DNA of 32,220 nt from Clostridia bacterium (lineage in GTDB: Bacteria; Bacillota; Clostridia; Oscillospirales; CAG-272): positions 1 through 32,220 of the forward strand of contig JAFSAM010000072.1 in assembly GCA_017441005.1 (NCBI GenBank), in the 5' to 3' direction. The translations under genes were made by a program, and so were the position numbers. The notes under the pieces were generated by a model. That model was not told the origin of the DNA, ran no database searches, and saw only the letters and a program-made list of their open reading frames with translations. Shown one piece after another: positions 17,433 through 28,904 of the stretch; positions within the stretch are counted from its first letter, which is position 1, and each line of letters starts with the position of its first letter.

Positions 17433-18020
17433 TTATAAAAGAACAAAGTGGTTTTTATTGCTTTTAAGAACTCCCTCTGCCCGTAATTTACTTATCTCGG
17501 CGGAGAGTCCGCTTCGGTCGACCTGTAGGTAGTCTGCAAGCTCCTGTCGGTCAAACGGGATAAAGAAATCGGCACTTCCGACCTCTTTTGATCGGAGCAT
17601 CAGATAGGTCAGAAGCTTCTCGCGCGTCGTTCTTTTTGAGGTGACCTCGATCTTTTGGTGGAAGCCGACCGTTTTTGTCGCCAGATCCTTCATAAGATTG
17701 TAGATAAGGCTTTGGTGGAAGGCGCAGTTGTTAGAGCAGGTGTGTAGAATGTGCGATGATTCTATCAGCATTACCGTGCAGGGCTCGTGCGCCACAACGT
17801 TTACGGGGAGCGTGACCGAGTCGGCGCAGGCAAATTCCTCGGCGAATATGTCGCCGTTTCCCATTGTGCTCAGAATACTTCGATTTCCGTAGTAGTCGAT
17901 CTGTGTCATCTGTGCTTTTCCGTCAAGTATAATTCCAATGTGTTTGGTTGGGGTGCCCTCCGATAGGATTATGCTCTTTTTATTATACTTTTGTATCTTT
18001 GCTCCGAGGCAGTTAAGCAT
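17433..18020 (-). CDS. Crp/Fnr-family transcriptional regulator (true N-terminus uncertain)
   Basis: From ATG 18020 the product has 195 residues: a cyclic-nucleotide-binding-like beta-roll (IILSEGTPTKHIGIILDGKA, GDIFAEEF) and a C-terminal Crp-type helix-turn-helix (DRQELADYLQVDRSGLSAEISKL). It lacks the FNR cysteine cluster. The frame stays open upstream to 18086 and encodes KKCPLFETIEEADLLR just before Met18020, which is the normal N-terminal helix of this clostridial group, so the ATG at 18020 is too short. No standard start lies in that extension: the only in-frame ATG (18092-18090) is followed at once by TAA (18089-18087). Either a rare start codon (ATT at 18074) is used, or the gene has a nonsense change or assembly error. 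Its position opposite the flavodiiron operon suggests control of oxygen-stress genes. Confidence 0.82.
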   Translation of the reverse strand: MLNCLGAKIQKYNKKSIILSEGTPTKHIGIILDGKAQMTQIDYYGNRSILSTMGNGDIFAEEFACADSVTLPVNVVAHEPCTVMLIESSHILHTCSNNCAFHQSLIYNLMKDLATKTVGFHQKIEVTSKRTTREKLLTYLMLRSKEVGSADFFIPFDRQELADYLQVDRSGLSAEISKLRAEGVLKSNKNHFVLL

Positions 18021-18107
18021 TCGAAGCAGATCAGCTTCTTCTATCGTTTCAAACAGGGGGCATTTTTTTAAAATTTGTAGATAAAATTACATATTTTTCT
18101 CTCTTTT

Positions 18108-18121
18108 GTTGAATTTTCAAC
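18108..18121 (-). promoter_or_regulatory. Inverted repeat just downstream of crp promoter
   Basis: GTTGAA-TT-TTCAAC is a perfect dyad resembling a degenerate FNR-type TTGAN-NTCAA site. It lies about 9 to 22 bases after the inferred crp start site, where a bound protein would repress. It could also fold as a short leader hairpin. Confidence 0.4.
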
Positions 18122-18136
18122 ATACAGTTCTTTGTG

Positions 18137-18188: not shown

Positions 18189-18269
18189 TGTTTTATATAA
18201 GCAGGGTAAATAAGACGGCTTTTATTGAACAAATAATATCGTATGATCTAACCGTTGGAGGTACAATAT

Positions 18270-20060
18270 ATGAAGATTACAAACGATATAAAATATATCG
18301 GAGTCAACGATCACAGTATAGATCTTTTTGAGGGACAGTACGTTGTCCCGAACGGAATGGCATATAATTCGTATGCGATCATGGACGAGAAGATCGCCAT
18401 AATGGATACTGTGGATGCAAATTTCACTCATGAATGGCTTGACAATATCCAGAATACGTTGGGCGAAAGAAAGCCCGATTATCTTATAGTTCAGCATATG
18501 GAGCCCGACCATTCGGCAAACATATTCAATTTTGCAAAGACCTATCCCGATGCACAGATCGTATCATCGGCAAAAGCTTTTGCAATGATGAAAAACTTTT
18601 TCGGAACGGACTTTCCCGACAAGCAGATAGTTGTCGGCGAAGGAAGCACGCTTTCGCTCGGCAAGCACGAATTGACCTTCGTTACAGCCCCGATGGTGCA
18701 CTGGCCCGAGGTAATAGTAACCTATGATTCGACCGACAAGGTACTTTTTTCCGCAGACGGCTTCGGTAAATTCGGTGCTCTCGACATTGAGGAGGGCTGG
18801 GCTTGCGAGGCAAGGAGATACTATATCGGTATCGTCGGAAAATACGGAGCACAGGTACAGGCGCTCCTCAAAAAGGCGGCAGGACTTGACATTGAGAAAA
18901 TATGTCCTCTCCACGGTCCCGTTCTGACCGAAAACCTTGGCTACTATATCGGTCTTTACGACACCTGGTCGAGCTATCAGCCTGAGGAAGAGGGAATAGT
19001 GATCTGCTATACCTCGGTATACGGAAATACCAAGAAGGCTGTGCTCAAGCTTGCGGAGGCATTGAAGGCAAACGGATGTCCAAAGGTAACCGTAAACGAT
19101 CTTGCAAGATGCGATATGGCGGAGGCTGTCGAGGATGCGTTCCGTTACAGTAAGCTCGTTCTTGCGACAACGACCTACAATGCGGAAATATTCCCCTTTA
19201 TGCGCGAGTTTATCAACCACCTTGTCGAAAGAAACTTCAGCAACCGCACTGTTGCCTTGATAGAAAACGGCAGCTGGGCACCCATGGCGGCTAAGGTGAT
19301 GAAGGGAATGCTCGAGAAGTGCAAGAATCTTAACTTTACCGATACGACGGTCAGAATAATGTCGGCTCTTAACGAGGATAGCCGGGCACAGGTAGATAAG
19401 CTTGTCGGCGAGCTGTGCAAGGATTATCTGGCACAAAGCTCGGTAACGGCAAACAAGAGTGATATGACAGCACTTTTCAATATCGGTTACGGTCTTTATG
19501 TAGTAACGTCGAACGACGGCAAGAAGGACAACGGTCTGATCGTTAACACGGTTACCCAGGTAACCAGCGTTCCGAACAGAATAGCCGTTACGATAAACAA
19601 GGAAAACTACTCGCACCACGTGATCAAGCAGACGGGAATCATGAACATTAACTGCTTGACGGTAGATGCTCCCTTTGCGGTGTTCGAAAAATTCGGCTTC
19701 CAAAGCGGAAGAAACGTCGATAAGTTTGCAGATTGCACACCGTTGCGTTCTGACAACGGATTGGTGTTCCTGCCGAGACATATCAACTCGTTTATGTCAT
19801 TGAAGGTGGAGCAGTATCTCGACCTCGATACTCACGGAATGTTTATTTGCTCGGTAACCGAGTCGAGAGTTATTTCCGACAGAGAGACGATGACCTATAC
19901 GTACTACCAGAACAACGTAAAGCCGAAACCCAAGACGGACGGTAAAAAGGGATATGTGTGCAGAATATGCGGATATGTTTACGAGGGAGAGGAGCTCCCC
20001 GAGGATTTTGTATGTCCCTTGTGCAAGCACGGTGCTGCCGACTTTGAAGTCATTGAGTAA
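18270..20060 (+). CDS. Flavodiiron protein fused to flavin reductase and rubredoxin domains
   Basis: I use ATG 18270 (GGAGG 8 bases before). 596 residues in four modules. 1-240: metallo-beta-lactamase-like diiron domain with ligands H76, E78, D80, H81 (QHMEPDHSANIF), H144, D163 and H215. 243-390: flavodoxin domain (CYTSVYGNT binds FMN). About 395-545: FMN-binding flavin reductase domain (NGLIVNTVTQVTSVP). 562-596: rubredoxin with C564, C567, C582, C585. The core reduces O2 to water or NO to N2O; the added domains bring electrons from NAD(P)H through flavin to rubredoxin within one chain. Such extended flavodiiron proteins are known in anaerobes. It heads an operon with superoxide reductase and rubredoxin, divergent from a Crp/Fnr regulator. 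A role in oxygen tolerance is well supported; O2 versus NO preference is not readable. Confidence 0.95.
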   Translation: MKITNDIKYIGVNDHSIDLFEGQYVVPNGMAYNSYAIMDEKIAIMDTVDANFTHEWLDNIQNTLGERKPDYLIVQHMEPDHSANIFNFAKTYPDAQIVSSAKAFAMMKNFFGTDFPDKQIVVGEGSTLSLGKHELTFVTAPMVHWPEVIVTYDSTDKVLFSADGFGKFGALDIEEGWACEARRYYIGIVGKYGAQVQALLKKAAGLDIEKICPLHGPVLTENLGYYIGLYDTWSSYQPEEEGIVICYTSVYGNTKKAVLKLAEALKANGCPKVTVNDLARCDMAEAVEDAFRYSKLVLATTTYNAEIFPFMREFINHLVERNFSNRTVALIENGSWAPMAAKVMKGMLEKCKNLNFTDTTVRIMSALNEDSRAQVDKLVGELCKDYLAQSSVTANKSDMTALFNIGYGLYVVTSNDGKKDNGLIVNTVTQVTSVPNRIAVTINKENYSHHVIKQTGIMNINCLTVDAPFAVFEKFGFQSGRNVDKFADCTPLRSDNGLVFLPRHINSFMSLKVEQYLDLDTHGMFICSVTESRVISDRETMTYTYYQNNVKPKPKTDGKKGYVCRICGYVYEGEELPEDFVCPLCKHGAADFEVIE

Positions 20061-20097
20061 ATAATAATTTTTTTATAATAAACAGGAGGATTTGATC

Positions 20098-20478
20098 ATG
20101 TGTGATAACAAATTTTACATCTGCGAGCATTGCGGAAACATTGTAGGACTTATCAAAAACGGCGGTGTACCGCTTATGTGTTGTGGAAAGAAAATGGTAA
20201 AGCTTGAGCCGGGAACGGTTGAAGCAAGCCATGAAAAGCATATTCCCGTAGCAAAGGTTGAGAATAATCTTGTAAAGGTACAAATCGGCTCTGTCGCTCA
20301 TCCTATGACCGAAGAGCACAGCATCACTTGGGTATACCTTCAGACAGATAAGGGCGGCCAGCGTAAGTGCCTTAATCCGGGGGAGGCTCCCGAAGTAACG
20401 TTTGCTTTGGCAGATGAAAAGCCCGTTGCGGTTTACGCTTACTGCAACCTTCACGGAATCTGGAAGGCAGATCTCTAA
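20098..20478 (+). CDS. dfx: Desulfoferrodoxin (superoxide reductase)
   Basis: A 126-residue protein, start ATG 20098 with AGGAGG 7 bases before (an in-frame TTG at 20092 is too close to it). N-terminal desulforedoxin domain with Cys9, Cys12, Cys28, Cys29 (a rubredoxin-like Fe centre), then the catalytic neelaredoxin domain: EKHIP with E46, K47 and H48, then H68, H74, and CNLHG with C116 and H119, giving the His4Cys site that reduces superoxide to hydrogen peroxide without producing O2. Electrons come from rubredoxin, encoded next. All catalytic residues are present. Confidence 0.96.
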   Translation: MCDNKFYICEHCGNIVGLIKNGGVPLMCCGKKMVKLEPGTVEASHEKHIPVAKVENNLVKVQIGSVAHPMTEEHSITWVYLQTDKGGQRKCLNPGEAPEVTFALADEKPVAVYAYCNLHGIWKADL

Positions 20479-20502
20479 TATTTAGTAAAGGAGAATATTA
20501 TA

Positions 20503-20661
20503 ATGAAAAAATACGTATGTGATATTTGCGGATACGAATATGACGAAGAAGTAGGCGAGCAAAGCCAGGGAATAGCTCCCGGAACAAAGTGGGAGGACGT
20601 TTCCGAGGATTTCGTATGTCCCATCTGCGGCGTTGACAAATCCAACTTCAGCGAAGCATAA
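20503..20661 (+). CDS. Rubredoxin
   Basis: A 52-residue protein, ATG at 20503 with AAAGGAG 9 bases before. Two CxxC pairs (C6-C9, C39-C42) with the rubredoxin contexts VCDICGYEYD and DFVCPICGVDKSNF. It binds one iron and carries single electrons, here presumably to superoxide reductase and the flavodiiron protein. Last gene of the operon; a strong terminator follows. Confidence 0.96.
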   Translation: MKKYVCDICGYEYDEEVGEQSQGIAPGTKWEDVSEDFVCPICGVDKSNFSEA

Positions 20662-20675
20662 ATCTTTTGAAAAAT

Positions 20676-20714
20676 GCCGCCCGTAACCCCAAGAACGGGC
20701 GGCTAATGTTTTTT
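20676..20714 (+). terminator. Terminator of oxygen-defence operon
   Basis: GCCGCCCGT (20676-20684) pairs perfectly with ACGGGCGGC (20695-20703), 10-base loop, followed by TAATGTTTTTT. Confidence 0.9.
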
Positions 20715-20746
20715 AACAATAATTCAATGAGACAGAGGGTGTTTAT

Positions 20747-21499
20747 ATGGGAATGGTTTTACTTACTGCCATAGGAGTCGGCGGGGCTACGGTCATAGGC
20801 TCACTGATGGGATTTATGTTCAAAAAAATATCGCATAGGTTTTCCGACATAGTTCTATCGTTTGCCGCGGGTGTAATGCTTGCCGCTGCTGTGATCGGGC
20901 TCGTGCTTCCGTCGCTTGATTATGGAGGTAAATACGGCATAATCATAACAGTTATCGGTATTTTTGCGGGCGCATTCTGTTTAAATCTGATAGATAAGCT
21001 CGTTCCGCACCTTCATAAGCTTATGGGAAGTGACACCGAAAAGCACAATAACGAAAACCTGAGCAAGGTATTGTTTTTTGTTATGGCAATTGCGATACAT
21101 AATTTGCCTGAGGGTATTGCTGCGGGTGTCGGCTTCGGATCGGGAGACGTCTCACAGGCAATGGTAATTGCCGGCGGAATTGCTTTACAAAACATTCCCG
21201 AGGGAATGGTCATAATCGGTCCTATGCTTGCGGCGGGAGTATCGCCGAGAAAGACGTTTTTGTGTGCGATGGCGACGGGGCTTGTTGAGGTTGTAGGGAC
21301 TTTGATAGGTTATCTTGCAGTCAGTGTCGCCACGGTGATCCTGCCGTTTGCGTTGGCTTTTGCGGGAGGAACGATGCTTTACGTTATCAGCGACGAGATG
21401 ATTCCCGAAACACACTCTCACGGAAGCGAAAGAGGGGCGACTTACGCTCTGCTTGTTGGCTTTTGCGTTATGCTCGTTACCGACATTTTGTTGGGATAA
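20747..21499 (+). CDS. ZIP-family metal (zinc) transporter
   Basis: A 250-residue membrane protein with about eight membrane segments. The two metal-binding helices are clear: HNLPEGIAAG (H118, N119, E122) and QNIPEG (Q148, N149, E152), with a histidine-bearing loop near 86-101 between earlier helices. ZIP proteins bring Zn2+, and sometimes Fe2+ or Mn2+, into the cytoplasm. The ATG has GAGGG upstream. It lies between terminators, so it is probably monocistronic, but I see no clear promoter in the 45 bases before it. Metal specificity is unknown. Confidence 0.93.
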   Translation: MGMVLLTAIGVGGATVIGSLMGFMFKKISHRFSDIVLSFAAGVMLAAAVIGLVLPSLDYGGKYGIIITVIGIFAGAFCLNLIDKLVPHLHKLMGSDTEKHNNENLSKVLFFVMAIAIHNLPEGIAAGVGFGSGDVSQAMVIAGGIALQNIPEGMVIIGPMLAAGVSPRKTFLCAMATGLVEVVGTLIGYLAVSVATVILPFALAFAGGTMLYVISDEMIPETHSHGSERGATYALLVGFCVMLVTDILLG

Positions 21500-21504
21500 G
21501 ATAC

Positions 21505-21540
21505 AGAGCTTCGGAATGTTATGCCCGGGGCTCTTTTTTA
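21505..21540 (+). terminator. Terminator of ZIP transporter gene
   Basis: AGAGCTTCGG (21505-21514) pairs with CCGGGGCTCT (21525-21534) with two G-U pairs, 10-base loop, then TTTTTTA. Confidence 0.82.
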
Positions 21541-21570
21541 TTTGCTTTTTTGAATAAAAAAAGCAATAAA

Positions 21571-21611
21571 CAACAATAATTGTTGACAAAACAACATAGT
21601 GGTGCTATAAT
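21571..21611 (+). promoter_or_regulatory. Consensus promoter overlapped by CAACA/TGTTG operator half-sites (fak operon)
   Basis: TTGACA (21583-21588), 17 bases, TATAAT (21606-21611) with an extended-10 TG (21603-21604): essentially perfect. The -35 is embedded in alternating half-sites: CAACAAT-A-ATTGTTG (21571-21585) is a dyad, and its TGTTG also forms a dyad with CAACA at 21592-21596. A bound protein would mask the -35, so this looks like a repressor operator; the MarR protein encoded in the same operon is the obvious candidate. Confidence 0.75.
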
Positions 21612-21681
21612 AAACTTGGTATGTTTTGGGAAAAACATTAGTTAGTACGTATCGAAATAAGCAAAAGAATAAGGAGATAGT

Positions 21682-22548
21682 ATGAAAGACTATATAATCT
21701 TAACCGATTCCGCTTGTGACATTAAACCCGAAATACTTGAAAAGTGGGGAGTTGGATTTGAGAGCCTTACTTTGAGATTTGAAGGCGACGAAAAAGAATA
21801 TTCCAATTTTGAAATAACAGCAAAAGATTTTTATGACAGAATGCGTAAGGGCGGTGCTGCAAAAACTGCCGCTGTAAACGTTGAAAGATTCGTGCAGCTT
21901 TTTGAGAATTATCTCAAAGAGGGCAAGGACGTGCTTTATGTCGGATTTTCCTCCGGACTCAGCACGACCTATAATTCCGCAAGACTTGCGGGCATACAGC
22001 TTGCCGAAAAGTATCCCGAAAACAAGATAATTACAGTAGACTCGCTTTCCGCATCTGCGGGATTCGGTCTCTTGCTTTACCTTACGGTAAAAAAGAAGAA
22101 CGAGGGTGCCACAATTGAGGAGGCGGCAAAGTTTGTTGAGGATACAAGATTGCATCTTTGCCACTGGTTCACCGTTGACGATCTTGTTTACCTAAAGAGG
22201 GGCGGAAGAATCAGTCCCACGGTTGCGTTTGTAGGAAATATGCTCGGCATTAAGCCTGTTTTACACATGGACAACGAGGGACACCTTGTAAACGTTTCAA
22301 AGGTAAGAGGCAGAAGGACCTCTGTCGAGGCTTTGGCTCAGAAGTTTGATGAATTAGCTCTTGACAAAAACGGCGGAACACTCTTTATATCTCAAGGCGA
22401 CTGTATGTCGGATGCAGAGTACCTGGCTTCCATAATCAAGAATAAGCACGGTATTGACGTTGAGATCATCACCGACGTCGGCCCCGTTATCGGTGCTCAT
22501 ACAGGTCCCGGCGTTTTAGCATTCTTCTTTGTAGGTAAAGAAAGATAA
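21682..22548 (+). CDS. DegV family fatty-acid-binding protein (FakB-type)
   Basis: A 288-residue DegV protein: N-terminal TDSACDI, VGFSSGLSTTYNSA (the Ser/Thr pocket that holds the fatty acid carboxylate) and C-terminal GPVIGAHTGPG, whose His contacts the same group. FakB proteins bind an exogenous fatty acid and present it to FakA for phosphorylation to acyl phosphate, which feeds phospholipid synthesis through PlsY or PlsX. Start ATG 21682 with AAGGAGA 5 bases before. FakA follows after 66 bases. By hand count 11 of 12 arginines use AGA or AGG. The chain-length preference cannot be read. Confidence 0.93.
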   Translation: MKDYIILTDSACDIKPEILEKWGVGFESLTLRFEGDEKEYSNFEITAKDFYDRMRKGGAAKTAAVNVERFVQLFENYLKEGKDVLYVGFSSGLSTTYNSARLAGIQLAEKYPENKIITVDSLSASAGFGLLLYLTVKKKNEGATIEEAAKFVEDTRLHLCHWFTVDDLVYLKRGGRISPTVAFVGNMLGIKPVLHMDNEGHLVNVSKVRGRRTSVEALAQKFDELALDKNGGTLFISQGDCMSDAEYLASIIKNKHGIDVEIITDVGPVIGAHTGPGVLAFFFVGKER

Positions 22549-22614
22549 TTTTTTACAGTACACGGACACCAGTGCCGTGATCCACCTAAAATAAACAAAT
22601 AAGGAATTATACTT

Positions 22615-24360
22615 ATGTTTTTCAAAAAATCTGAGAAAAAGGATTCCAAAAAGAAAACAAAGGAATCTAAAGAGCTGAAGATCATTGGCGGTTTTTGGCT
22701 GAAAAAAATGGCAGAGGGCGGAGCCGCAAGACTTCGTTCAAAGTCCGATGAGGTCAATAAACTGAACGTATTTCCCGTGCCCGACGGTGATACGGGCGAC
22801 AATATGAGAATGACCATCGAAAGCGGTATCGCGGCGGTTGAGAATATGGACTCCGATGATATTGCTGAAGTAATGAAGGTCATTTCGCACGGAATGCTCC
22901 TCGGCGCACGAGGAAACTCGGGCGTTATCCTGTCGCAGTTTTTTGCGGGCGTAGCCAAGGGACTTGAAAAGTCAGCGAAGGCTGACGTAAGAACCATGGG
23001 CGAGGCTTTGCAGAAGGGTGTTGAGCAGGCTTATGCATCTGTTATGAACCCTGCAGAGGGTACTATCCTTACCGTTGCAAGAGAGTCTGTCGACTATGCA
23101 GTAAGCAGAATTACCCCCAAAAGTACGATCAGAAGCCTTTTCGGCGACCTTGTAAAGGAAATGTATGCATCTCTTGAACGTACTCCCGAGGCTCTTGCCG
23201 TTTTGAAGGAGGCGGGCGTTGTAGACAGCGGCGGTGCAGGTCTTTTCTACATCATGGACGGCTTTAACAGGGTGCTTAACGGCGAGCAGGTGACACTTGA
23301 ATTGGGCGACGATAAGCCCAAGGCGAAGGCTCCTTTGTTTACATCGGATTTTAACGCTGACAGCGTAATGGAATACGGGTACTGCACAGAGCTTCTCGTT
23401 CAGCTGATGAATGCAAAAACTGACGTTAAGTCGTTTGATATCGAGCCTTTGAAAAAGTTTTTGGGCGAGATAGGTAACTCGGTAGTTTGCTTTAAGACCG
23501 ACAGCATCGTCAAGCTCCACGTACATACAATGACCCCCGAAAAGGTGCTTGAGCATTGCCGTACCTTTGGTGAATTTTTGACAATAAAGATCGAGAATAT
23601 GTCCTTGCAACATACCGAGCTTGAGGCAAAAGAGGACGAGTCTGACAATACTCCCATTATTGCTGAATCCGAGGTCAAGGAATCGCTTACACAGAAAAAG
23701 TACGGAATCGTTGCAGTAACAAACGGAAGCGGAATTGAAAGCCTTTACAAGGAGCTTGGAACAGATGAGGTAGTTCAGGGCGGTCAGACGCAGAACCCCT
23801 CTACAAACGATTTCCTTTCGGCATTTGAAAAGGTGTCAGCCGAGCACATTTTCGTGTTCCCCAATAACGGAAATATCATTATGGCAGCACAGCAGGCTGC
23901 CGAAATATACAAAAAGGCGATAGTCCACGTTATTCCCAGTAAGAATATCGGTACGGGATACGTTGCGGTATCTTCAGCCGATCTCAGCGGAGATGATCCC
24001 GAGAAGATCGAAAAAGAAATGATCGAGGCTATGAAGAGAGTAACGGCAGGCTATATTTCGCCCGCGATCAGGGATGCCGATATGAACGGTGTTCATATCA
24101 ACAACGGCGATACAATCGGTATTATCGAAAAGGAGATCGTCGTATCCGAGCCCGAAAGGCTTGAGGCGGCGAAGAAGCTTGTTGCAAAGCTTTTGGAAGA
24201 TGACGGCAAGTTTATGATCACTGCATTTACGGGTACAGATTCCGATACAGAGGAGTGCTCTGCTTTGGAGGAATACCTCAGAACCGCATATCCTTCTGCT
24301 GAAATATACTTTGTTGAAGGCGGTCAAGAGGTTTACCCCTATATTTTTGTTGCAGAATAA
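22615..24360 (+). CDS. fakA: Fatty acid kinase FakA (DAK2/DegV-like fusion, YloV family)
   Basis: A 581-residue protein. The N-terminal DhaL-like nucleotide domain (about 21-230) contains NVFPVPDGDTGDNM (metal-binding Asp 57, 59, 62) and GARGNSGVILSQ; a middle region (about 240-345) follows, and the C-terminal FakB-interacting domain (about 365-581) contains GGQTQNPSTNDF and FPNNGNIIMAAQQAA. It phosphorylates FakB-bound fatty acid with ATP. The length is near the usual 550, but the first 20 residues are an unusual Lys/Ser-rich, charged extension (FFKKSEKKDSKKKTKESKE) ahead of the normal N-terminus. The ATG at 22615 has AAGGA upstream. It pairs functionally with the FakB gene before it. Confidence 0.94.
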   Translation: MFFKKSEKKDSKKKTKESKELKIIGGFWLKKMAEGGAARLRSKSDEVNKLNVFPVPDGDTGDNMRMTIESGIAAVENMDSDDIAEVMKVISHGMLLGARGNSGVILSQFFAGVAKGLEKSAKADVRTMGEALQKGVEQAYASVMNPAEGTILTVARESVDYAVSRITPKSTIRSLFGDLVKEMYASLERTPEALAVLKEAGVVDSGGAGLFYIMDGFNRVLNGEQVTLELGDDKPKAKAPLFTSDFNADSVMEYGYCTELLVQLMNAKTDVKSFDIEPLKKFLGEIGNSVVCFKTDSIVKLHVHTMTPEKVLEHCRTFGEFLTIKIENMSLQHTELEAKEDESDNTPIIAESEVKESLTQKKYGIVAVTNGSGIESLYKELGTDEVVQGGQTQNPSTNDFLSAFEKVSAEHIFVFPNNGNIIMAAQQAAEIYKKAIVHVIPSKNIGTGYVAVSSADLSGDDPEKIEKEMIEAMKRVTAGYISPAIRDADMNGVHINNGDTIGIIEKEIVVSEPERLEAAKKLVAKLLEDDGKFMITAFTGTDSDTEECSALEEYLRTAYPSAEIYFVEGGQEVYPYIFVAE

Positions 24361-24384
24361 GAGCTTACAGGTGTGTAAAATACA

Positions 24385-24831
24385 ATGGAAGAAAGATTCA
24401 AATTATTTACGGTCTATATGACCAAAATAAGGCGTAGTATACAGAAGATAAAGACCGAAGAGATGGCTGAATATAATCTGAAGAGCCCTCATGTTTCTTG
24501 TTTGTATTATTTATATAAGTATGGCAAAATGACGGCAACGGAGCTTTGCGAGATATGCGATGAAGACAAGGCATCTATTTCGAGATCCATTGTTCAGCTT
24601 GAAAAAGAGGAATATGTTTTTTATCCCGACGGCAGTCAAAAGCGTTATCGCGCTCAAATGGCTCTTACCCCAAAGGGCGAAAAGATCGCAATAGATCTTG
24701 CGCGCAAGATAGACAGAGTTCTTGAACTGGTAGGAGACGGTGTTACCGAGGAATCGAGACAGAACTTTTACAAGAACCTTGCGCTTATAAGCGACAATCT
24801 CGAAGAGATTTGTAAACAATACGATAAATGA
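24385..24831 (+). CDS. MarR-family transcriptional regulator
   Basis: A 148-residue MarR-type winged-helix protein: dimerisation helix at the N-terminus, then MTATELCEICDEDKASISRSIVQLEKEEYV (helix-turn-helix, about 50-77, quoted only in part: ELCEICDEDKASIS) and a wing with Asp/Gly before RAQMALTPKG. It follows fakA by 24 bases and overlaps the HAD gene as ATGA, so it is co-transcribed with the fatty acid kinase genes. In Streptococcus and Lactococcus a MarR protein, FabT, senses acyl groups and represses lipid genes; by context this could be an analogous sensor acting at 21571-21596. That is inference. The ribosome binding site is weak (AGGTG, distant). Confidence 0.9.
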   Translation: MEERFKLFTVYMTKIRRSIQKIKTEEMAEYNLKSPHVSCLYYLYKYGKMTATELCEICDEDKASISRSIVQLEKEEYVFYPDGSQKRYRAQMALTPKGEKIAIDLARKIDRVLELVGDGVTEESRQNFYKNLALISDNLEEICKQYDK

Positions 24832-25577
24832 TCCGAAAAGTGATTGAAGAATTGAACGATACAAAAATAAAAGCGGTGTTGTTTGATCTCGATGGCACAC
24901 TGTTGCCCATGGACCTTGACGAGTTTTTTGAAAACTATTTTAAGCTCCTGGCGGCAAAGCTTTATCCTTACGGATATACCGACTCGGAGAAGCTTATCAA
25001 GGTGGTTGTCGGCGGTGTGTATGAGGCAATAAAAAATGACGGAACAAGATATAACGGCGAGGTCTTCTGGGACTTTTTTGACCGTAATCTTGCACAGGTC
25101 AAGCTTGATAATAAGGCGGAGATTCTGGATGAATTTTACCGCAACGAGTTTAATTCTCTGAAGAGCCTTTGCGGTTTTAATCCTAAGGCAAACCGGACTG
25201 TCAAGCTTTTGAAGCAAAAGGGGATTCGTACCGTTGTTGCTACAAAGCCTATATTTCCTCCGTCTGCGATCGAATCGCGTATGGAGTGGGCGGGACTTGA
25301 GCTGTCGGATTTCGAGTATTATACCGACTACGATAAGTGCAGATACTGTAAGCCCGATGTCGGATACTATAAGGAGATTGCCGACAGACTCGGTGTTTTA
25401 CCGTCGGAATGTCTTATGGTAGGCAATGACGTATCCGAGGATATGACGGCAATGGATATCGGTATGAGAGTCTTCCTCCTGACCGACTGCCTCATAAACA
25501 GCGAAAACAAAGATCTGTCCTCTTATAATAAGGGCGGCTTCGATGAGCTTGTAAAATTTATCGAACAGCATATATAA
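24828..25577 (+). CDS. HAD-family hydrolase (Cof/Gph-like phosphatase)
   Basis: A 249-residue HAD hydrolase: motif I FDLDGTLL with nucleophile D20 and D22, motif II VVATKP, the lysine in YCKPDVGYY and motif III MVGNDVSEDMTAMDIG. A helical cap (about 27-125, FFENYFKLLAAKLYPYG) follows motif I. Such proteins dephosphorylate small metabolites. The start overlaps the MarR stop as ATGA, so the two are translationally coupled and belong to the fak operon. A HAD phosphatase tied to a fatty acid kinase could act on acyl phosphate or a lipid phosphate, but nothing in the sequence proves this. A bidirectional terminator follows. Confidence 0.92.
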   Translation: MIRKVIEELNDTKIKAVLFDLDGTLLPMDLDEFFENYFKLLAAKLYPYGYTDSEKLIKVVVGGVYEAIKNDGTRYNGEVFWDFFDRNLAQVKLDNKAEILDEFYRNEFNSLKSLCGFNPKANRTVKLLKQKGIRTVVATKPIFPPSAIESRMEWAGLELSDFEYYTDYDKCRYCKPDVGYYKEIADRLGVLPSECLMVGNDVSEDMTAMDIGMRVFLLTDCLINSENKDLSSYNKGGFDELVKFIEQHI

Positions 25578-25581
25578 CCAC

Positions 25582-25609
25582 AAAAAACTGCCGATTTCGG
25601 CAGTTTTTT
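25582..25609. terminator. Bidirectional terminator between HAD and AraC genes
   Basis: A perfect 12-bp stem AAAAAACTGCCG/CGGCAGTTTTTT (25582-25593, 25598-25609) with loop ATTT serves both convergent transcripts. Confidence 0.92.
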
Positions 25610-25645
25610 TACTGTAATTTGTTTTGAACAAGAAATATGCATAGT

Positions 25646-26455
25646 TTAAAGCAAGGTTTTCATATACTGTCCCGGCGTCATAGCGTAGCATTTGCGAAAT
25701 GCTCGGATAATGCCGCCGCCCGAGCCGAGCCCCGTTTGCTGTGCGGTCTCTTCCTGGCTTATACCTTTTTTCAGCAGTACAACGGCTTTTTTTACCCTTA
25801 CCTTCATAACGTAGTCGGACAGCGTCAGACCGGTGTGTTTTTTTATGGCGGTCATAAGTGTGGTTCTTCCGATGTTCAGGATTTTTGCAAGATCGGCTGC
25901 AACGATTCTTTCTGCATAGTGTTTGTTTATATAGCTCACCGCGTCAAGCACTATCGGAGAAGAAAATGGCTCTGTCTTTTGTTTTGTAAAAGAGTCGTTT
26001 TCAAGAATATATGTCAAAAGAGCAAGAATTCGAAGCTTTTTTCTTATGACGTTATTATCGTCCATTATTTGATAGAGTTCGGTTTGATATCTTTCACAAT
26101 CGACACGCGAAAGGTTAATGATATTGCCGTTTTTACCGAAAGCGCGCGAGAGTGTGTGCCATTCCTCGATGGAGTTTTCTATAAAGTCAGGCTCAAAAAA
26201 CAGGTTCATACGCGCATAATGGCTGGGGGATGACATAAAGATCAAATGCGGTGTTCCCGGCGCGCAAAGGATGAGGCGCGGTTGATTTCCGTCTTGTTCC
26301 TTGTCGCGGAGCATGCTTTTCATGTGTCCCGAAAGAATAAGGCTGATTTCGTAGTAATCGTGGGAATGAAAATCTGCGGGGTCGGGGCAGTGTCCGTGCT
26401 TGAAGCTAACGTAGCATTGTTGGTTTGACGGGTGACCGTCGTTTGGGATATGCAT
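25646..26455 (-). CDS. AraC-family transcriptional regulator with cupin sensor domain
   Basis: A 269-residue regulator. The N-terminal cupin-like sensor (about 15-140) carries FHSHDYYEISLILSGH and CAPGTPHLI; the C-terminal AraC DNA-binding domain (about 170-269) has two helix-turn-helix units, with VAADLAKILNIGRTTLMTAIKK, quoted by its core ADLAKILNIGRTTL, and ending RAFRKCYAMTPGQYMK. Members usually sense a sugar or related small molecule and activate an adjacent catabolic operon. It is divergent from a TIM-barrel protein and a serine hydrolase, and three repeats between them (26498-26581) are its likely sites. ATG at 26455 with GGAGG 7 bases before. Confidence 0.93.
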   Translation of the reverse strand: MHIPNDGHPSNQQCYVSFKHGHCPDPADFHSHDYYEISLILSGHMKSMLRDKEQDGNQPRLILCAPGTPHLIFMSSPSHYARMNLFFEPDFIENSIEEWHTLSRAFGKNGNIINLSRVDCERYQTELYQIMDDNNVIRKKLRILALLTYILENDSFTKQKTEPFSSPIVLDAVSYINKHYAERIVAADLAKILNIGRTTLMTAIKKHTGLTLSDYVMKVRVKKAVVLLKKGISQEETAQQTGLGSGGGIIRAFRKCYAMTPGQYMKTLL

Positions 26456-26497
26456 AACAGCACCTCCATATTTTGATCAGCTTTATGATAACACTTT

Positions 26498-26581
26498 TTG
26501 AATGATTTGTCAATTATAGCGAGATTACTATAAAAAAACTGATCGTAATTGAACGATATGTCAGTCTTTTGAACGATTGTC
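26498..26581. promoter_or_regulatory. Three direct repeats TTGAAYGATDTGTC, probable AraC-type operator
   Basis: Copies at 26498-26511, 26549-26562 and 26569-26581 (the last one base shorter), all in the same orientation. The second and third are 20 bases apart (two helical turns) and abut the -35 region of the downstream gene; the first lies near the divergent araC start. This is the arrangement expected for an AraC-type activator with a distal site near its own gene. Confidence 0.65.
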
Positions 26582-26583
26582 TA

Positions 26584-26613
26584 TTGCGTAAACAGCTGTG
26601 TTTGATGTATAAT
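26584..26613 (+). promoter_or_regulatory. Activator-dependent promoter of TIM-barrel/serine hydrolase operon
   Basis: TATAAT (26608-26613) is consensus, while the -35 TTGCGT (26584-26589, 18-base spacer) is weak. The repeat ending at 26581 touches the -35, as in class II activation. Confidence 0.6.
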
Positions 26614-26644
26614 CAGAAAAAGTATAATTGTAAGGGGTATTATT

Positions 26645-27418
26645 ATGAAGTTTGGTTCTTGTTTGAGTATGAAGCAGTTTTGGACAATGTATCCGGTGTT
26701 TGCGGAATTTGCGGAAATACCGGCATGCGCTGTTGCCAACATGGAAACGGAAGAGTATAAAAGCTTGAAGAGGCTTGCAGACAGTGGCAGAGTTGATTTT
26801 TACAGTGTAAAAAATCTTATAAAAGAATACCGCTTGACGGGACGGGAAGTAAATTTCACTTTATTAAAGGAATATATTGAAAAGCTTTTTTACAGACTTG
26901 CAGAGCTGAAGACCAAGCTTATAGTATTTGGGTCGGGAAAGGTGAAGGACGTCGAAGAGGGCTTTTCGCGTGAAAAAGCATGGGAACAGCTTTTTGAGTT
27001 TGGTGCAATGATTGCCGATGAAGCGAAAAAATACGGACAGAAAATAGCAGTCGAGCCATTGGCATACAGCGAAACGAATATACTAAACACCGTTGAAGAA
27101 GGTGCATATTACGTAAAAAACGTAGACAGAGCCAATTTCAAATGTATGGTGGATTTTTATCATTTTGACTGCAACAAAGATAATTATGCCGACATCGAAA
27201 AGTATGCGAAAGATATCATTCACATCCACTTTGCAAGTCAATCCTTGCGAAAACTTCCTGTAACAACGGAAGATTGGCAGTATATTGAAAAATGGATGGG
27301 AATACTGAAAAAAATAGGTTATGACGGCGCAGTTGCATTTGAAGGCGGCATTGATACGTCGGAAAATCTGAATAACACTTTGATAAGATTAAGAAAAATT
27401 GCGGAAGGCGATATTTGA
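26645..27418 (+). CDS. Xylose-isomerase-like TIM-barrel protein (sugar phosphate isomerase/epimerase family)
   Basis: A 257-residue AP-endonuclease-2-type TIM barrel (PF01261). The probable metal ligands of this fold are present in order: AVEPLAYSETN (E137), MVDFYHF (D170, H173), HIHFASQ (H195) and AFEGGID (E233). The family includes sugar epimerases, inosose dehydratase and hydroxypyruvate isomerase, all cytoplasmic. ATG 26645 with AAGGGG 7 bases before. It is first in a two-gene operon under the divergent AraC regulator and ends two bases before the serine hydrolase start. The substrate is unknown; carbohydrate metabolism is likely from context. Confidence 0.9.
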   Translation: MKFGSCLSMKQFWTMYPVFAEFAEIPACAVANMETEEYKSLKRLADSGRVDFYSVKNLIKEYRLTGREVNFTLLKEYIEKLFYRLAELKTKLIVFGSGKVKDVEEGFSREKAWEQLFEFGAMIADEAKKYGQKIAVEPLAYSETNILNTVEEGAYYVKNVDRANFKCMVDFYHFDCNKDNYADIEKYAKDIIHIHFASQSLRKLPVTTEDWQYIEKWMGILKKIGYDGAVAFEGGIDTSENLNNTLIRLRKIAEGDI

Positions 27419-27419
27419 T

Positions 27420-28904
27420 ATGTTAAAAAATGTTATACCGGAAAAAGTCGGAATAAGAGCGAAAGAGGTTCATAAATTCCTGTACTCTTTTGAAAAAAGA
27501 AAACTGCATTTGCACAGTTTGATTTTGATGAAGGGTGAGGATATTTTCCTTGAAAGCTACTGGGCACCTTTTACCAAAGAGACTCCGCACAGAATGTACT
27601 CGGTAACAAAGAGCTTTGTTTCGGTCGCTGTCGGTTTAGCTGAAGAAGACGGTCTTTTGGATATTAACAGACCAATAATTGAATATTTTCCCGAAAAGAT
27701 CGAGGGGGAAGTATGCGAAGCTCTGAAAAAACAAACTGTACGCGATATGCTGACTATGACTACGGTAGGACCTTGTACATCTTGGTTCAAAGCGGGGGAC
27801 CCCGACAGAACACATCTGTATTTTAAAGACAGAGCACAGTGTCGCACTCCCGGAACGGTCTGGCAGTATGATAGCTCGGGAAGTCAGGTTATTTGCAATC
27901 TTGTGGAAAAGGTTACGGGAAAAAGCCTGTTTGATTATCTGAACGAGCGTATATTCGTTCACCTCGACGCATTTAAAAACGCGAAGATGCTCAAGACACC
28001 GAACGGAGTTACTTGGGGGGATTCGGCAATGATATGTACTCCTCGCGACCTTGCGATTTTCGCACGTTTTGTTATGAATTACGGAACGTATGACGGCAAA
28101 AGGCTGATGAACGAAGAGTATTTAAGAATGGCTACCTCTTGCGTTGTAAGCAACTTGCGTTCGGGACATAACAGTATGTTTGAACACGGATACGGATATC
28201 AGTTCTGGCGAACGGAAAATAACGGTTTTGCATTTGTCGGTATGGGAAATCAGCTTGCAATATGCTTGCCTGATAAAGACTTGATAATGGTGTGCACCGG
28301 AGATATGCAGGGAAATCAATTTGCAAGGGATTACATAGCGGCACAGCTTATGGATATTATATATGATAATATGTGTGATGCTGCAATTGCCGTAGACACG
28401 GACACCAATCAAGAGCCTCTTATCTGTTCATTTCCGCTTTTTTCCGCAAAGGGAATGGCTGATTCACCGTTCAGAAGCGAGCTTGACGGAATAACATATA
28501 AATGCATTGAAAATCCTTTAGGCTGGCAGGATTTCTGTTTTGAATTTGAAGACGGATCGGGCGGAAAGCTGATATATACCAAATCGGGCAGAAAAAAAGA
28601 ATTGCCGTTTTACGTGAATAAAAATAGATTCGGCATATTTCCTGAGGAAGGTTATTCCAAAGAGTATGGCGGAATGCGGACTACCGATGGGCATAAATAT
28701 AAGGATGCCGTTTCCTTTGCCTGGCTCGAGGAAAAAAGGATTCAAATATTTGTGCAGATAATCGATGATTATTTCGGAAATCTTGCTTTGTTTTTCGGTT
28801 TCAGGGATGACAAGGCAACCGTAACGGCAGTCAAGGCGGCAGAGAACTTTTTGTGGGATTATGCCGGAGAGGCGATCGCCGAAAAGGTAAATGGAGAAGG
28901 GTAG
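27420..28904 (+). CDS. Class C beta-lactamase-like serine hydrolase
   Basis: I use ATG 27420, one base after the preceding stop and 11 bases after AAGG; the frame extends upstream but would overlap that gene. 494 residues. The penicillin-binding-like domain (about 30-330) has SVTKS (nucleophile S61, K64) and YDSSG in the place of the usual YSN motif, with TPGTVWQYD before it and GYGYQFW and GMGNQ later. Residues about 335-494 form an extra C-terminal beta-rich domain that I cannot name. No signal peptide, so it is probably a cytoplasmic esterase, amidase or peptidase rather than a secreted beta-lactamase. It is coupled to the TIM-barrel gene and so likely acts on the same compound, for instance by releasing an acyl or glycosyl-linked group. 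Confidence 0.9.
   Translation: MLKNVIPEKVGIRAKEVHKFLYSFEKRKLHLHSLILMKGEDIFLESYWAPFTKETPHRMYSVTKSFVSVAVGLAEEDGLLDINRPIIEYFPEKIEGEVCEALKKQTVRDMLTMTTVGPCTSWFKAGDPDRTHLYFKDRAQCRTPGTVWQYDSSGSQVICNLVEKVTGKSLFDYLNERIFVHLDAFKNAKMLKTPNGVTWGDSAMICTPRDLAIFARFVMNYGTYDGKRLMNEEYLRMATSCVVSNLRSGHNSMFEHGYGYQFWRTENNGFAFVGMGNQLAICLPDKDLIMVCTGDMQGNQFARDYIAAQLMDIIYDNMCDAAIAVDTDTNQEPLICSFPLFSAKGMADSPFRSELDGITYKCIENPLGWQDFCFEFEDGSGGKLIYTKSGRKKELPFYVNKNRFGIFPEEGYSKEYGGMRTTDGHKYKDAVSFAWLEEKRIQIFVQIIDDYFGNLALFFGFRDDKATVTAVKAAENFLWDYAGEAIAEKVNGEG

Follow-up and report, generated by a model that had tools for sequence, protein, structure and literature searches.

A putative MarR-controlled fatty acid kinase operon with a HAD-type hydrolase gene in a Clostridia bacterium

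Introduction

Proteins of the FakB family bind a fatty acid, and FakA phosphorylates the bound fatty acid to give an acyl phosphate. According to the part of the source that was available, the acyl phosphate made by FakAB can pass to PlsY or, via PlsX, to acyl-ACP (PMC10146087), so that acyl phosphate and acyl-ACP are both possible signals. The Mg-site residues, the catalytic Cys and the H-hydrophobic-H residues of S. aureus FakA are given in a second source, available in part (PMC9136124). FabT is a MarR repressor of Lactobacillales which governs the fab operons and, in the portions available of two accounts, does not count fakAB of E. faecalis among its targets (PMC13046290, PMC9083066). BilQ is a named MarR protein encoded near the bilirubin reductase BilR, and the available portion of its account gives no operator (PMC10769871).

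Little was found in print on the control of environmental fatty acid use in Clostridia. Literature searches gave no description of a DegV, MarR and acyl-CoA synthetase regulon or of a FabT and FakB regulon in Clostridia. The search on DegV-MarR fatty acid operons in Firmicutes returned pneumococcal work only, that on the operator core TTGACAAATCAA unrelated contexts only, and that on a haloacid dehalogenase as a fatty-acid acyl phosphate phosphatase a phytoplasma review only.

The locus described here lies in a stretch of 32,220 nucleotides (the window), which makes up a whole contig (C71) of a draft genome of 2.1 Mb in 83 contigs from a Clostridia bacterium. Its kinase genes resemble S. aureus fakA and fakB in their domains and corresponding catalytic motifs, with solved homologues found, and differ in forming an operon with marR and HAD genes behind a predicted operator. 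FabT is the nearest known concept: both regulators have a MarR fold and appear as lipid-related regulators encoded inside the operon controlled, but FabT leads a fab operon (PMC13046290, available in part), whereas the window regulator lies in a fak operon. The HAD protein shares motifs and fold with HAD-IA phosphatases and dehalogenases and differs from them by a family signature, ATxPxFPxxAxxxRxxWAG. The parts are known, but the regulator-operator pair and its HAD and FakB fusions were not found described in the literature searched. Judged from the sequence comparisons below, the locus very probably belongs to an autoregulated regulon for fatty-acid activation, one that differs from that of FabT.

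Results and Discussion

Organization of the locus

The FakB-FakA-MarR-HAD gene set at 21682-25577, named in an initial annotation made from the sequence alone, was confirmed by ORF calls, Pfam and NCBIfam. The features of the locus are the following.

21571..21585, no strand: perfect 15-bp palindrome CAACAATAATTGTTG, overlapping the operator; sole exact copy in the genome
21581..21596, + strand: predicted MarR operator TGTTGACAAAACAACA, containing the -35 box; one mismatch to TGTTGA-N4-TCAACA
21583..21611, + strand: sigma-70 promoter TTGACA-17-TATAAT; 12/12 match
21682..22548, + strand: fakB, DegV-family fatty-acid-binding subunit, 288 aa (ORF call, Pfam, NCBIfam)
22615..24360, + strand: fakA, fatty acid kinase, 581 aa (ORF call, Pfam, NCBIfam, motifs)
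24385..24831, + strand: marR, MarR-family regulator, 148 aa (ORF call, Pfam, fold search)
24828..25577, + strand: had, HAD-IA phosphatase-type hydrolase, 249 aa (ORF call, Pfam, motifs)
25582..25609, + strand: terminator-like inverted repeat AAAAAACTGCCGA/TCGGCAGTTTTTT; perfect 13-bp arms, ending in T's

The coupling of marR and had by ATGA, also noted in the initial annotation, was found at 24828-24831, where the start of had lies inside the end of marR. The promoter was the sole 12/12 sigma-70 match within 20500-27500; promoter-like matches in the same scan were near chance (16 against 11.6, sd 3.9). Terminator-like matches numbered 7 against 6.4 by chance, and the inverted repeat at 25582-25609 was not among the terminators listed by that scan. 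No Rfam match or tRNA was found across the window. We infer that fakB, fakA, marR and had lie on a single transcript. The arrangement exceeds chance, since it recurs in two congeners, in full in G098 and without FakB in G040. Downstream (25646-28904) an AraC-type regulator gene on the minus strand is followed by genes for a sugar-epimerase-like TIM barrel and a beta-lactamase-like protein on the plus strand; an HAD gene beside a TIM-barrel gene was seen again in L120.

The FakB protein matched the DegV model TIGR00762 with 249.4 bits (cut-off 99.7), as well as solved FakB1 chains, and stayed below the FakB1 equivalog cut-off (139.7 against 350). Similarly, FakA reached 554 bits for the FakA-like/YloV model TIGR03599, above its cut-off, and 471.7 bits for the FakA equivalog, below the cut-off of 975. 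Pfam resolved DhaL/Dak2, middle and C-terminal domains in FakA; its NVFPVPDGDTG stretch aligned to the solved N-domain 8vip, and GYCTE and HVHT to 7w7h, so that the N/D/D/T residues of the Mg site, the catalytic Cys and the H-hydrophobic-H motif were all accounted for. With the domain set and the S. aureus catalytic-residue motifs kept, both proteins look functional.

The MarR regulator and its predicted operator

The MarR protein scored 28.3 bits for PF12802 (MarR_2; cut-off 27). Its AlphaFold model had a pLDDT of 89.7, and the top fold matches were MarR proteins, in agreement with a winged-helix MarR fold. For the NCBIfam equivalog of BilQ it scored 38.3 bits, the cut-off being 125, which sets it apart from BilQ.

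The element common to the DNA upstream of MarR operons was TGTTGA-N4-TCAACA. With at most one mismatch, 54 sites were found in 43 MarR loci (388 kb), 38 of which had a site, against 4 sites in 91 loci outside that set (757 kb); the five simulated controls had 2, 4, 0, 2 and 0 sites. The 43 loci had been picked by their MarR match and not by the motif, yet the motif was derived from some of them. When read by eye, 53 of the 54 sites stood just 5' of the MarR-containing operon. In many loci the TTGACA inside the operator forms the -35 box, a TATAAT-like box lying 17 bp downstream of it. A second operator copy is frequent 36-42 bp after the first. Because the operator covers the -35 box, binding would block the promoter, an arrangement that points to a repressor. 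At the cut-off of 0-1 mismatch the operator was missing from five of the 43 loci, including congener G040 and the MarR-HAD fusion genome G003 described below, and no site was found in any of L176-L178. The window's own predicted operator is imperfect, with one mismatch. The palindrome CAACAATAATTGTTG was also considered as an operator and rejected: its near-matches were 17 against 14 in the control, and relatives share the adjacent TGTTGA-N4-TCAACA instead.

An exact scan of TGTTGACANNTCAACA over the 118 genomes of the family, not limited to MarR loci, gave 60 rows representing 58 distinct places in 36 genomes, and a single match for the reversed-pattern control. The first gene behind the site was MarR in 21 places; FakB, FakB-FakA or FakA, an AMP ligase, an acyltransferase or an iron-dependent alcohol dehydrogenase (Fe-ADH) in 23; a GT8 glycosyltransferase in 2; and unrelated, coding background or unassigned in 12. 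The Fe-ADH, acyltransferase and GT8 labels were confirmed by Pfam on representatives, the other labels resting on local profiles or likeness by eye. The MarR gene was present in 26 of the 36 genomes with an exact site against 22 of the 82 without. Over the class sample of 293 genomes, the same scan gave 45 distinct places in 37 genomes (control 4). There, 10 of the 19 MarR places found by the class search had an exact site just 5'; many other exact matches look like coding background, and in genomes without this MarR the pattern also falls in apparently conserved coding sequence.

Within the genome of the window itself, sites with up to two mismatches were hardly enriched (100 against 78 in the control), so that the best-scoring sites alone are useful. 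Eleven had 0-1 mismatch: one is the fak promoter, and six fall in or near unrelated genes and are background-like. A candidate at C50:13585 lies 264 bp upstream of a second fakB (DegV), which is followed by a gene for an acyltransferase (430 aa, PF01553 on the full ORF), and has a DUF1295 gene on its opposite side. Another, at C72:16795, lies about 130 bp before a gene for an AMP-binding enzyme, with another gene on the opposite side. As both sites stand between divergent genes, the real target could be the other gene. A further site, at C43:4443, lies about 300 bp before the gene of an HTH-cupin-AMP-binding protein. In each of the genus's three genomes the second DegV/FakB gene was preceded by the operator, orthology being judged by eye.

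From these data the following circuit, to which the initial annotation contributed the gene set and the present analysis adds the operator and the regulon, may be proposed. The four genes would form one unit for the activation of exogenous fatty acids, in which FakB would bind the fatty acid and FakA would phosphorylate it to acyl phosphate. The MarR protein, named FakR here, would bind TGTTGA-N4-TCAACA over the -35 box and repress its own operon; the second fakB with its acyltransferase gene and the AMP-binding ligases are further candidate targets. Repression would most likely be set by a fatty acid, either as such or in activated form. We regard the regulator and operator part of this circuit as likely to hold. 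If so, one regulator family and a short operator would unite fatty acid kinase, AMP-binding acyl ligases, acyltransferases and Fe-dependent alcohol dehydrogenases, and the predicted regulon with its apparent operator makes the regulatory circuit directly testable.

Alternatively, the MarR protein could be a FabT-type regulator of fatty-acid synthesis, placed here by happenstance. The FabT-DNA structure 6jbx stood at Foldseek rank 4 for the window MarR, and both regulators would respond to fatty acid supply. Against this, Pfam searches with 23 window proteins turned up no fab gene and none was recognised behind the operator sites, and E. faecalis fakAB lies outside the FabT regulon in the available part of PMC13046290. 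This alternative appears very improbable.

Relatives of the window MarR, four of them 48-51% identical to it, are encoded next to OYE/BilR-like genes. In L078, L081, L085 and L087 the MarR gene is followed by the OYE/BilR-like reductase gene and the same operator is present, with one mismatch in L085. Since these relatives share the operator, the BilQ neighbourhood, and with it bilirubin-reductase-type operons, could form part of this regulator family, which would place bilirubin-reductase-like genes under this family and operator in some genomes.

Linkage of MarR, Fak and HAD genes

At the cut-offs used, FakA was found in 86, HAD in 47 and MarR in 48 of the 118 family genomes. The FakA neighbourhoods bore out the pairing with MarR, which lay within 5 kb of FakA at 14 places in 14 genomes; about 0.4 would be expected by chance, in an estimate that ignores kinship. 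In 5 of the 47 HAD genomes, from three genera, an HAD gene was no more than 5 kb away from FakA; a model that ignores kinship predicted 0.29, and three of the five genomes are of one genus. FakA occurred in 44 of the 47 HAD genomes against 42 of the 71 without HAD, and MarR in 29 of 47 against 19 of 71 (both uncorrected for kinship); at the cut-off applied, three HAD genomes gave no match to FakA.

The gene order of the window, FakB-FakA-MarR-HAD, was shared by congener G098, and congener G040 had FakA-MarR-HAD with no preceding FakB. Two genomes (G101 and G081) carried FakB-FakA-HAD without MarR. Without an adjoining HAD, the orders seen were MarR-FakB-FakA (G054, G106, G107, G034), FakB-FakA-MarR (G012), FakA-MarR (G014), the reverse MarR-FakA (G074), FakA-MarR-FakB (G109), MarR-AMP ligase-FakB-FakA (G032, G093) and MarR-x-FakB-FakA (G006). 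In G074 there is also an HAD gene ahead of MarR-AMP ligase; as three operators separate it from MarR, this HAD is not clearly cotranscribed. The class sample, in which neighbourhoods were read for 33 of the 52 HAD places outside the window, added two linked loci, one of the order MarR-FakB-HAD (G170) and one in which FakA and HAD follow a MarR-FakB fusion (G304), and a DegV-HAD pair was found on the named contig L059. Linkage was a point on which the initial annotation had made its reading depend, and MarR-HAD-Fak linkage does recur outside the genus.

Several other candidate linkages were rejected: in L119 and L126 the DegV genes are divergent to HAD; in L051 FakB-FakA lies 1.9 kb off on the opposite strand; in L046 and L156 a weak MarR is on the opposite strand; in L129 the OYE gene is two genes away; and in L097 the AMP ligase is distant.

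MarR and HAD were also found fused, in a single 388-aa frame in G003 that is intact in G411 (73% identity) and G412 (67%). The fusion thus occurs in three of the six genomes of genus g4, of which a fourth has HAD alone and two gave no match; with the frame intact in three genomes, an assembly error is unlikely. A MarR-FakB fusion was observed in G304 alone, and the family's only other genome lacks it. Both fusions point to a direct coupling of lipid handling and DNA binding.

The HAD protein

The HAD protein matched PF00702 with 60 bits and contained all four motifs (DxD, S/T, K and GNDxxxD), as expected of an HAD-IA phosphatase; its structure model had a pLDDT of 90.8. Residues D7, D9, T126, K162, N187 and D192 (numbering of the trimmed sequence) were conserved in at least 95% of 95 HAD sequences. 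The 18 relatives from named genomes came mostly from Clostridia MAGs, many of them of gut or rumen origin.

Conservation of the catalytic motifs in the relatives, the FakB-FakA-HAD loci without MarR and the locus with MarR-FakB fusion, FakA and HAD would suit a phosphatase dedicated to acyl phosphate, which would undo the FakA reaction and thereby set the acyl-phosphate level, as the initial annotation had imagined. Its fatty-acid circuit stands as very probable; an HAD acting on acyl phosphate or tuning the kinase fared less well. Of 22 NCBIfam models matching the protein, the general HAD-SF-IA-v1 alone reached its cut-off; a sequence search of solved structures returned three weak matches, none giving a substrate; the nearest folds were general HAD-IA dehalogenases and phosphatases; and no substrate family fitted. 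Moreover, only 10 of 97 HAD loci (the window, 18 named, 45 from the family and 33 from the class) had HAD linked to Fak or MarR genes on the same strand, the 87 unlinked ones including loci cut by contig ends, and the HAD genomes lacking a FakA match also argue against this function. We consider it rather unlikely.

The wide occurrence of HAD at unrelated places would instead fit a housekeeping enzyme that hydrolyses an unrelated small phosphate and was either recruited to the regulon in certain lineages or is a neighbour by chance. The linked rows are scattered on the tree of the 95 sequences, the ten of them requiring 8 changes against a shuffled mean of 9.7 (17 of 500 shuffles were this low), in a tree of weak deep support; its starred branches force one change. 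Multiple origins are thus not forced by the tree, and repeated recruitment of HAD to Fak/MarR loci is likely but not proven. No pathway common to the neighbours of 21 unlinked loci (22 proteins, read by eye) was seen. Two observations oppose a housekeeping role: the linkage is repeated above the chance estimate and in two kinds of coupling, operon and fusion, and a stand-alone HAD gene is preceded by a perfect operator. In that genome (G026) the site begins 45 bp before the ORF, with a promoter-like stretch too, and it is the only perfect site among the 91 loci without this MarR. The operator-like sites before the HAD genes of L049 and L160 have one mismatch in AT-rich DNA, the genome of the latter (G189) having no MarR match, and the remaining near-site lies inside an unrelated ORF. 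A housekeeping role is possible, if somewhat doubtful.

We hold that HAD probably forms part of the circuit in some lineages. It may be a regulon-associated phosphatase whose substrate is a lipid intermediate in phosphorylated or activated form, or one that trims the signal sensed by MarR; the prospects of this clause are evenly balanced. In a further reading, HAD would erase or remodel a phosphorylated fatty-acid signal read by the fused or coupled MarR, and acyl phosphate would be made, erased and sensed at the level of transcription by a single module in several Clostridia lineages; such a phosphatase-coupled lipid sensor seems improbable.

Other operator sites

The operator was also seen before genes for Fe-dependent alcohol dehydrogenases, either immediately or with MarR in between, in L084, L090, L213, L263, L266 and L269, with an aldehyde dehydrogenase gene next to them in L084 and L090; these genes are a possible fatty-aldehyde branch. 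In two genomes (L207 and L265) it stood before a GT8 glycosyltransferase gene. Finally, the remaining one of the eleven sites with 0-1 mismatch in this genome is a perfect TGTTGA-N4-TCAACA in the window at 18107-18122, between the genes of a Crp-type regulator (17433-18020, minus strand) and a flavodiiron-type protein (18255-20060, plus strand), the latter followed by a desulfoferrodoxin gene (20092-20478, plus strand). This site could mark a further regulon member or be an Fnr-type element.
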